Assembly (NCBI GenBank): GCA_030649165.1
Contig: JAUSGG010000024.1
Coordinates: 1 to 64,000 of the forward strand
Source: Armatimonadota bacterium
Lineage (GTDB): Bacteria; Armatimonadota; UBA5829; JAUSEB01
DNA length: 64,000 bases
Reading direction: 5' to 3'
In this document: positions 35,592-63,213 of the stretch, piece by piece
Layout of the letters: every line of letters starts with the position of its first letter
Position numbering within the stretch: position 1 is the stretch's first letter
The notes under the pieces: model-generated
Database searches by the model: none
Told to the model about the DNA's origin: nothing
The model's input: only the letters and a program-made list of their open reading frames with translations
Position numbers and translations under genes: made by a program

Positions 35592-35778
35592 GATCCTTCG
35601 GTAGCAAAGCGGCAGCGACGCCGCCGAAGGACGCACCGCTGTGCGTTGTTTCGGGATTTGAGGGTTGGGCGTCACACTCGTGCGGTTATAGTACAACCTC
35701 ACATCCCGACCCGGAAATCCCGAAACGGGGCGCTCCCGATCCTTCGGTAGCAAAGCGGCAGCGGAGCTGCCGAAGGAG
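35592..35778. repeat. GATCCTTCGG hairpins flanking a GTTTCGGGATTT hairpin element
   Basis: 35592-35632 and 35738-35778 are direct copies of the GATCCTTCGGTAGCAAAGCG hairpin. Between them 35648-35726 is a full copy of the other hairpin family, giving a nested-looking composite. Confidence 0.85.
35648..35726 (+). repeat. GTTTCGGGATTT hairpin element, copy 2 (79 bp, GGGTTGGG type)
   Basis: Outer stem as in copy 1; inner stem GGGTTGGG with CCCGACCC; the loop contains GGTT/AACC arms. Confidence 0.9.
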
Positions 35779-37585: not shown

Positions 37586-37948
37586 GAGAGTTTCTGGTCA
37601 AACAATAATTATCGCCCTACGTCCAATAGCTGTGATCGATCGCTGATTCATGACGGTTGTGTACAACCCGTCGCTGAACACTGGTTGGCGCTGTGAGTCC
37701 GCGCGTGATCTTGGCAATTGGACGTTGGTCGTTTTAGTGGGTAAGAGCTCACGATTGGCGAGTACAACTCTTTTCGTCGCTCACTCTCGGGAGAAGACGA
37801 GCGTAATCCCCTCTCCCTTGAGGGAGATGGCCGTTGTTTCGGGATTTGAGGGTTGGGAGCCATACATTTCGGGTTGCATGAAGCCTTTGTTTCCCAGCCC
37901 GGAAATCCCGAAACGGGCGCTGTATGAGAAGTCTAGTAGGTCTGATCA
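37586..37948. repeat. gap between rplT and pheS with repeats
   Basis: 37806-37830 is a truncated CCCTCTCCC unit that abuts a full GTTTCGGGATTT hairpin (37836-37914). The first 200 bases show no gene, promoter or terminator that I can support. Confidence 0.7.
37836..37914 (+). repeat. GTTTCGGGATTT hairpin element, copy 3 (79 bp, GGGTTGGG type)
   Basis: Outer stem exact; inner stem GGGTTGGGA with TCCCAGCCC (one G-T wobble); the loop has GGTT/AGCC arms. Confidence 0.9.
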
Positions 37949-49808: not shown

Positions 49809-49879
49809 TTTGGCCTGTAGCCGCAGCGCAACGACCGCACGGTAACCGACAGGCCGGCTCGGTTTCCCGCGAGATTCCC

Positions 49880-49957
49880 GTTTCGGGATTTCCGGGTGGG
49901 GACGTGAAGCTGCCTGTTATCGCATTATGTACGACGCCCAACCCTCAAATCCGAAAC
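49880..49957 (-). repeat. GTTTCGGGATTT hairpin element, copy 5 (78 bp, GGGTTGGG type)
   Basis: In reverse orientation. One base is lost in the left arm (GTTTCGGATTT), and the inner stem GGGTTGGG with CCCCACCC has one mismatch. The rest of the gap to 50080 shows nothing else. Confidence 0.85.
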
Positions 49958-50080
49958 AACAAACCATTCAGTTAGTGGCTGGAGGACCGTTTTCTTCCGG
50001 GTCTCCGTTTGCTTCGGGACGAAAAGCGTGTCCCGAAGCATAGAAAAGACGAAGCAGCCGGCAGGCAAGTGAGGGTACAA

Positions 50081-58695: not shown

Positions 58696-59074
58696 CTGAG
58701 TTTGCAGGCGCCTTCGGGAAGCGTCGGCATTCTGCGGCTGATGGCTCGTTGTTTGGGGATTTGAGGAGCGCCGCCGAACGTATCGCCGCATACACCAAGT
58801 GAACTGCGCTCCGGAAATCCCGAAACCGACTACGCTACAAGAGGAGAATTGTGGCCCATCGCCTAAGACTTTGCTTGGCGCACCGAAACAACGGAAAATC
58901 CGCTTTTAGGCGTGACGCAACCAGAAAAAGCAGATTCCTCCACTTCGGTCGGAATGACATTCCCGCGAAACTGAACTCACTCCTGAACAGTTGTCCTGTT
59001 CTCGTTTCCTTTCACTTCCGCTATAATGGCTGAGGTATTGCCGCCCGCGGGTTCAAGCGCCGGCGTAGGAGGAA
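58696..59074. other. gap between the toxin-antitoxin pair and the deacetylase
   Basis: 58751-58826 is a hairpin element. 59022-59027 is TATAAT, a likely -10 for the deacetylase gene, without a good -35. The remainder shows no gene. Confidence 0.55.
58751..58826 (+). repeat. GTTTCGGGATTT hairpin element, copy 6 (76 bp, GGAGCG type)
   Basis: Left arm GTTTGGGGATTT has one mismatch; inner stem GGAGCGC with GCGCTCC; the loop has GTAT/ATAC arms. Confidence 0.88.
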
Positions 59075-59842
59075 ATGTTGTCTGAGCTGATCGAATCTCC
59101 CTATCCCAATGGCTGCCGCGGCGCCGTGTCGCTGACGTTTGACGACGGTCTGGACTGTCACCTCGACATCGCCGTGCCCGCGCTCAATGACCGCGGGCTG
59201 CCGTCAACGTTCTACGTTGTCGCGCGGGAGATGACGGCGGGCGCCGATGATTGGAAAGATCGGGCCGCGAAATGGAAGGAAGTCGTTCGCCAGGGCCACG
59301 AGATCGGCAACCACTCCGTCTCGCATATATGAAGCACGGGTTTTAGCAGCTCCCGGGTGGAGCGCAGTCTGGAAAACGTATCGCTTGAGGAGATCGAGGC
59401 GGACGTGCTGGAAGCGGAGCGCAGGCTGAACGAAGCGCTTGGGCCGGCCCAGCGGAGTTTCTCCTACCCCTGTTACCAGGCTTATGTGGGCGACGGTCTG
59501 ACGCGGCGGTCCTACGTGCCGGTTATCGCCCGGCATTTCACGGCCGCGAGGGGCAGAGGCGAGTACGCCAACTATCCGCTGACTTGTTCGCTTACGTATT
59601 TGTGGTCGTATCCGGTGGAGGAGATGACGGGGCCGCGGATGATCGATCTGGTCAAGCGCGCCGTTTCAAACGGACAGTGGCTCATACTGACGTTTCACAG
59701 CATTGGCGACGGGCATCTTCCGGTTGCCCAAAACACGTTTGTGGAAGTGTGCGATTTCCTGGCGCGGAATCGCAGTGATATCTGGGGCGCGCCGGTCGTC
59801 GAGGTCGCGCGCCGGGTTGCTGATTGGCGGAAGTCGGCGTGA
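59075..59842 (+). pseudogene. NodB-type polysaccharide deacetylase with one in-frame UGA
   Basis: The frame is continuous over 255 codons apart from a TGA at 59330-59332. Before it: SLTFDDGLDCH (metal Asp pair) and GHEIGNHSVSH (zinc histidines). After it: STGFSSSR, SYPCYQAYVGDG and LILTFHSIGDG. In this subfamily the motif is usually HPCS, so the TGA stands where Cys is expected (TGC). Either a nonsense mutation, a sequencing error, or read as selenocysteine. GGAGGA precedes the ATG. The second half lacks a good start of its own. Confidence 0.75.
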
Positions 59843-59871
59843 CTGATTTCAGATCGCGGTTATACTCGGCC

Positions 59872-59954
59872 GTTTCGGGATTTCCGGGTTGGGAGCTGCA
59901 AAGTTTCCCTGGATAGCCGATAGGTTTAACGCCCCAACCCTCAAATCCCGAAAC
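59872..59954 (-). repeat. GTTTCGGGATTT hairpin element, copy 7 (83 bp, GGGTTGGG type)
   Basis: Reverse orientation. Outer 12-bp stem exact; inner stem GGGTTGGG with CCCAACCC exact; the loop is the longest seen. It lies 45 bases before the aminotransferase gene. Confidence 0.9.
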
Positions 59955-59999
59955 ACCGGGAAACACGAAATAAAGAACATGAGAGAAGAGGTAGGTTAG

Positions 60000-62067: not shown

Positions 62068-62904
62068 CTACAGCCCCTTCCTTCCGCTCACCTTCTCCGC
62101 CTCCAGCGAGTCGGCGATCTGCTGCCGGGCCTCGTCAATAATGTCCTGGACGTCTTCCGTTGAGAACACGCGCTGGTCGAAGGACCTGTTTTCGAGGGTT
62201 TTCAGGAACGCCTCGAACTCCTCGAAATACGAGCCGTATATGTGGAATGAATCGGCGATGTGCGTGTACTGGCCGGGACGGATTTCACGGCCAAGCTCCC
62301 TGGTGAGCCGTTCGGCGACGGCGCGCTGGAGATCGGTGAAGGCGTACATATTCATAAAAGCGGCCTTGAACGCGTCGTTGCTGCGCATGTGGGCGTTCAA
62401 GACAAGCTCATCTCCGTAGACGCGGAACCACAGCCGCTGCAGGCAGGCGGGGTCGGCGATTCCCGTGTCCTCCCACGGTTTCCAGGTGATGGCCTGGGCG
62501 CGGCGGGTGTGCGGGGCTTTGATCAGTTCTTGCGTCAACCGCTCGATCTGGTCAATCGGCTCCGACAGGCCGGGGACCGAATACGCCGCGAGGCGTTCGT
62601 GGTAGGTATACTCCCACTTGCCGGCCGCGGGATCGACCCAGTGGTCGTGAATGCCGTCCACCATCTCCTGCCGATAGGCTTCGAGCTCCACGATCCCTCC
62701 GGGGAAGCAGCGGTGAATGCGCGGCTCGGCCATCGAGTCTTCGACGACGATCACCGCAATAGCATCGCGGCTGGGCGGATCGCCCGGTTTGTCGTACTGG
62801 GTGGCGATCGCCGCGCCTTCACGCCACGTCCTGACGACGGCGTTCTCCCACGCTTCGGGCAGCGTCCGCGCCGAGACCGAGATTACGGGAAGTGTTTGAG
62901 TCAT
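62068..62904 (-). CDS. thymidylate-synthase-like protein
   Basis: A 278-residue protein related to thymidylate synthase/dCMP hydroxymethylase. A Cys154 in DPACLQRLWFRV corresponds to the catalytic cysteine, AHMRSNDAFKAAF (171-183) to the RxND nucleotide motif, and GQYTHIADSFHIYGSYFEEFE to the late HxY motif. It is shorter and more divergent than standard ThyA and resembles archaeal-type members. ATG 62904 behind GGAGGA. It may make dTMP or a modified pyrimidine. Confidence 0.7.
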   Translation of the reverse strand: MTQTLPVISVSARTLPEAWENAVVRTWREGAAIATQYDKPGDPPSRDAIAVIVVEDSMAEPRIHRCFPGGIVELEAYRQEMVDGIHDHWVDPAAGKWEYTYHERLAAYSVPGLSEPIDQIERLTQELIKAPHTRRAQAITWKPWEDTGIADPACLQRLWFRVYGDELVLNAHMRSNDAFKAAFMNMYAFTDLQRAVAERLTRELGREIRPGQYTHIADSFHIYGSYFEEFEAFLKTLENRSFDQRVFSTEDVQDIIDEARQQIADSLEAEKVSGRKGL

Positions 62905-62922
62905 TTGTTGAGTCTCCTCCAA

Positions 62923-63213
62923 GTTGAGATTGAGAGTTTAGAGTTGAGAGAGCCGGCTTGCCCTCAGGTCGGCCCAGCAGAGCCGGAACCGGAATCTATC
63001 ACGAAAGCACGAAAACACGAAATCGGAGCGGTTGTTTCGGGATTTCCGGGTTGGGATGCAAGGTTCTTCTTTAACCCTATAGGTATGACCCCCAACCCTC
63101 AAATCCCGAAACACCGGACGCACTTGCGCATGAGAGGCCTACGCCGAACCACGTGTTTCGTTCGTATCGGCGTTCATCTGTGCGCATCCGTGTTTATCTG
63201 TGTTCTTCTTCAA
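62923..63213. repeat. repeat-filled gap before the last gene
   Basis: 62998-63026 holds CACGAAAGCACGAAAACACG. 63034-63112 is a hairpin element. 63169-63212 is a CATCTGTG-type run. No gene. Confidence 0.7.
63034..63112 (-). repeat. GTTTCGGGATTT hairpin element, copy 8 (79 bp, GGGTTGGG type)
   Basis: Reverse orientation. Both stems exact; the loop has GGTT/AACC arms. Confidence 0.9.

Follow-up and report, generated by a model that had tools for sequence, protein, structure and literature searches.

A candidate selenocysteine codon at an invariant cysteine position of a CE4-like deacetylase gene in an Armatimonadota genome

Known selenoproteins are for the most part redox proteins rather than hydrolases. 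The word "deacetylase" is absent from a 2026 review that lists 119 prokaryotic selenoprotein families or subfamilies (PMC13188914) and from the deep-Sep paper (PMC12013277), and our literature searches for a selenoprotein deacetylase returned nothing relevant. Among the predicted selenoproteins that have been described are MerB-like and metal-binding proteins, for which selenocysteine (Sec) has been proposed to lie near a metal or to act as a metal ligand (PMC13188914). The published model of the bacterial SECIS element (bSECIS) specifies a loop of 3-9 nt with a G in the first two loop positions, a stem of 4-16 bp, a spacing of 16-37 nt and a folding energy of -7.5 kcal/mol or lower (PMC13188914).

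Here we describe a gene for a NodB/CE4-like polysaccharide deacetylase with one in-frame UGA, located in a stretch of 64,000 nucleotides (herein the window) from an Armatimonadota bacterium. We consider it reasonably probable, from the sequence and its relatives, that the UGA at codon 86 of this otherwise intact gene is read as Sec, and the gene appears more likely to encode an unrecorded type of selenoprotein than to be broken; if confirmed, the deacetylase would constitute a new selenoprotein family. The probabilities that we attach to Sec insertion, mutation, error and other readings are matters of judgement, not computation.

The deacetylase gene and its invariant cysteines

The features of the locus are as follows.

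59067-59072, + strand: strong Shine-Dalgarno sequence, AGGAGG
59075-59842, + strand: gene for a NodB/CE4-like polysaccharide deacetylase, 255 codons before the stop, with one in-frame UGA
59138-59149, + strand: TFDD, motif 1 (residues 21-25 read TFDDG; D23 and D24 conserved)
59312-59326, + strand: H-S-V-S-H, motif 2 (residues 80-84), with the two expected metal-ligand histidines
59330-59332, + strand: in-frame UGA, candidate selenocysteine codon 86 (Cys in 60/60 relatives)
59346-59365, + strand: SECIS-like hairpin, GCAGCTCC-CGGGT-GGAGCGC, loop at 59354-59358, -8.3 kcal/mol
59471-59473, + strand: Cys133 of YPCYQ, motif 3 region (Cys in 60/60 relatives), a possible partner of residue 86

The frame runs from ATG 59075 to a TGA stop at 59840, the single internal TGA lies in frame with both, and no frameshift was found within 59075-59842. 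Because the Shine-Dalgarno sequence stands 2 nt from ATG 59075 and 5 nt from TTG 59078, the latter may be the true start. When read through the UGA, the product is one Polysacc_deac_1 protein (PF01522, 66.7 bits against a cut-off of 23.1, 2.5e-18) that aligns end to end with its relatives; an AF2 model, built from seven sequences and with Cys placed at position 86, has a mean pLDDT of 89.9 and many PDB matches with the CE4 deacetylase fold. By the roles of these residues in CE4 enzymes, the metal ligands would be D24, H80 and H84, and the catalytic base would be D23. No named NCBIfam equivalog scored above its cut-off for the product, an Rfam scan of the region returned nothing relevant, and the gene is the single member of its subfamily in its own genome at E <= 1e-30.

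The collection of relatives covered 291 genomes in the phylum, 64 in another group and GTDB contigs, and 60 distinct relatives were aligned, the window's own sequence not being counted. All 60 have Cys at residue 86 and again at residue 133; no other Cys is invariant in the family. In a leave-one-out comparison of the columns that are at least 90% conserved, the window protein keeps 41 of 42, with D172S as its sole deviation; one deviation in 42 is typical of intact relatives, and there is no excess past the UGA. The initial annotation is thus borne out in placing a UGA at a conserved Cys position of a gene that is intact on either side of it. It had also taken a change of the neighboring Pro (to ATA) as a sign of decay, which the relatives contradict: residue 85, Ile in the window, varies among intact genes (Pro is commonest with 33, followed by Thr with 21; Ile and Leu occur twice each, Met and Ser once each), and ATA supplies 1138 of 4776 Ile codons and so is not rare here. 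Of the two outcomes that it had foreseen for orthologues, Cys at the same codon was found throughout and UGA in none of them; searches of the phylum's 290 other genomes, of 64 genomes in another group, and of GTDB and viral contigs gave no second UGA-bearing relative. In G001, the closest relative within this family of genomes, the deacetylase gene has no match.

Apparent extra stops in three relatives were rejected, one being the protein's own terminal stop (L168, position 249/249) and the other two having no stop within the aligned core (L050 and L172). A NodB-like group from one family of the phylum (L022, L024 and L025) carries GHEIGNGSLIGAALPDGS in place of GNHxxxHxC around residue 80 and TYDG in place of TFDD; the metal ligands are thus lost, and its members are perhaps pseudoenzymes.

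Several other elements lie close to the gene. It is adjoined by a ParE-type toxin gene (PF05016; 58191-58454, - strand) that is preceded immediately by a likely antitoxin frame, and the product encoded at 62068-62922 (- strand) contains part of a thymidylate synthase domain (PF00303, 47 bits). Just past the deacetylase gene, at 59870-59960, is a palindrome-like intergenic repeat of ~90 bases (TTTCGGGATTTCCGGGTTGGG...CCCAACCCTCAAATCCCGAAA), with further copies at 63034-63117, 37831-37919, 35644-35728 and 49878-49958. The copies are 75-84% alike and occur on many contigs of the genome, one of them upstream of selD (L045:1238-1321).

Selenocysteine machinery and mid-gene stops in the genome

The absence of selenocysteine machinery had been named in the initial annotation as evidence that would speak against recoding, and the genome proves to contain that machinery in full: a tRNA-Sec with a UCA anticodon (73 bits), selA (579.9 bits), full-length selB (382.6 bits) and selD (395.3 bits). 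UGA is also used within genes here, in SHGAG-U-ACK of selD (L045:1531-1533) and in CART-U-HAPT of an fdhA-type gene (L105:1729-1731), both of them textbook Sec sites; the hairpin loop is GUC for selD, and the apical loop is G-G-U-C-U (GGUCU) for the fdhA-type gene. Across the phylum, selD is present in 141 of 291 genomes, mostly with UGA. The assembly is metagenome-derived (5.48 Mb in 266 contigs, 99.3% complete, 2.5% contaminated), and the interspersed repeat adjoining the deacetylase gene recurs on many contigs, including that of selD, so the window belongs to one genome with the selD contig and did not stray in from another.

A thioredoxin-like gene elsewhere in the genome (contig C31, L151:6705-7274, - strand; PF13098, PF13899) has an in-frame UGA in FFNPG-U-GGCKKM and a TPR-like tail, and from this motif its product is a probable UxxC selenoprotein.

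The frequency of broken genes was gauged by screening ~834 kb (~15% of the genome, window included) for single stops flanked on either side by coding signal in the same frame. The screen relies on codon usage judged by eye and is of limited sensitivity, a stricter earlier setting having missed fdhA; it listed 40 sites, of which the real-looking interruptions are the UGAs of fdhA, the thioredoxin-like gene and the window, and the remainder, by inspection, are mostly pairs of adjacent genes in which a start codon follows closely on the stop. No TAA or TAG interruption was recognized in the ~834 kb screened, and 30 ABC-transporter domains were reported free of internal stops. Within the deacetylase gene, a stop can arise through 80 different single-base changes, of which 16 yield TGA; one of the 80 turns Cys86 into UGA and two strike either invariant Cys codon. 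As few stops occur in other genes and a single route in 80 leads from Cys86 to UGA, the position of the stop strongly favors Sec over a random stop.

Candidate SECIS hairpin and competing readings

The hairpin at 59346-59365 consists of a 7-bp stem, in which a single A is bulged, and a 5-nt loop with G second, lies 21 nt from UGA to loop, and falls within the published bSECIS limits in our own implementation of the model (PMC13188914). The hairpin layout described in the initial annotation is present, but it is not significant: the same limits accept 16.6% of random codons and 17.5% of Cys codons in this genome and 17.7% of sequences that encode this peptide with synonymous codons, a similar hairpin is found in 9 of 33 Cys-bearing relatives, and shuffled versions of the 46-nt stretch fold just as well (z 0.26). 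Its loop, CGGGU, is also unlike the G-G-U loop of this genome's fdhA and of many selD genes in the phylum. The hairpin is compatible with the bSECIS model but occurs at chance level and carries little weight; given a background rate of 17-18%, the weight of the argument rests on the UGA replacing an invariant Cys.

The reading of UGA as Sec is favored because the UGA matches an invariant Cys, the machinery is complete, UGA is used as Sec elsewhere in the genome, few genes are broken and the gene has no decay. Against it stand the single UGA-bearing example, the chance-level hairpin, the hydrolase fold and the context of the codon, which is UGAA, an efficient termination context. A recent nonsense mutation that turned the Cys codon into TGA, leaving an 85-residue fragment and a young pseudogene, would account for the lone example among all relatives and for the unremarkable hairpin; the youth of the lesion would also explain why the gene is otherwise intact, and the lack of a match in G001 implies that the gene is dispensable in the lineage. 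Such a mutation, however, must have struck one of two invariant Cys codons (2/80 routes) and yielded UGA, the very codon that this genome reads as Sec, and no mid-gene stop other than Sec-type UGAs was recognized in ~834 kb of the genome; we regard it as unlikely, though it deserves serious weight. An error of base calling, consensus or assembly is conceivable in a metagenome-derived contig from an assembly in 266 contigs, but it too would need to hit an invariant Cys codon and happen to give UGA, other genes seldom carry stops and there are no neighboring indels, so that we consider it improbable. Taken together, recent mutation or assembly error is a possibility of real substance that nevertheless falls short of an even chance.

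Other ways of accommodating the UGA, namely its reassignment (to Trp or Gly), its suppression, or expression in two pieces from GTG 59357, appear very improbable as a group. A reassigned code was rejected, as UGA ends ordinary genes (the deacetylase gene itself at 59840, and many UGA-terminated frames with the next gene directly after) and the relatives have Cys rather than Trp or Gly. Expression in two pieces could draw on the GTG start candidate 24 nt past the UGA, but the split would cut the middle of the catalytic domain. Of the two readings that the initial annotation had left standing, recoding stays viable, and mutation, which it had thought the simpler, now yields to Sec insertion as the better supported.

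Proposed role of residue 86 and comparison with known systems

Under the Sec reading, the organism's SelB/tRNA-Sec system would insert Sec at codon 86, with the hairpin at 59346-59365 presumably serving as the SECIS. Sec86 would replace the invariant Cys that lies two residues after H84, the second His of the metal-binding HxxxH, and would probably act at or beside the metal site. Both invariant Cys are expected near the active site, because residue 86 is H84 + 2 and Cys133 belongs to the motif 3 region (YPCYQ); Sec86 and Cys133 might then form a Sec-Cys redox pair, an alternative role of Sec86 being a metal contact. The gene neighbors in relatives include zinc-type dehydrogenases, Gfo/Idh/MocA proteins and members of the epimerase family, and in the window a DegT/DnrJ aminotransferase, which suggests a sugar-related small molecule as substrate. 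We tentatively propose, as a doubtful rather than a favored model, that Sec86 beside HxxxH pairs with Cys133 as a redox- or metal-sensitive control of a sugar deacetylase, and that this would be the first Sec in NodB/CE4.

Were Sec inserted, a hydrolase family would join the selenoproteins, a group made up mostly of redox proteins; it would hint at an unrecognized thiol function at the two invariant Cys of a widespread, uncharacterized deacetylase subfamily; and ordinary gene callers would have truncated this deacetylase. Were the UGA a mutation, the gene would be an ordinary young pseudogene.

Compared with FdhA and SelD, which depend on SelB and a bSECIS, the deacetylase likewise has an in-frame UGA at a family-invariant Cys in a genome with the full machinery, and its hairpin, 21 nt downstream, is within published limits (at the 17-18% background); it differs from them in its hydrolase fold, its one UGA-bearing member and a loop without G-G-U. 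The MerB-like and metal-binding selenoproteins have a fold different from that of the deacetylase, and the likeness to them is one of analogy only. With the NodB/CE4 family (PF01522) the protein shares the TFDDG and H-S-V-S-H motifs and, in the AF2 model, the CE4 fold. In contrast to classical CE4 enzymes, it looks cytosolic, the family's two invariant Cys (residues 86 and 133) have no place in the classical CE4 motifs, and motif 3 reads Y-P-C (YPCYQ) here and in the relatives, where the canonical RxPY/G does not occur. Because this absence of the canonical motif 3 is a feature of the subfamily, the protein, a predicted deacetylase, appears better called CE4-like than a classical CE4 enzyme.
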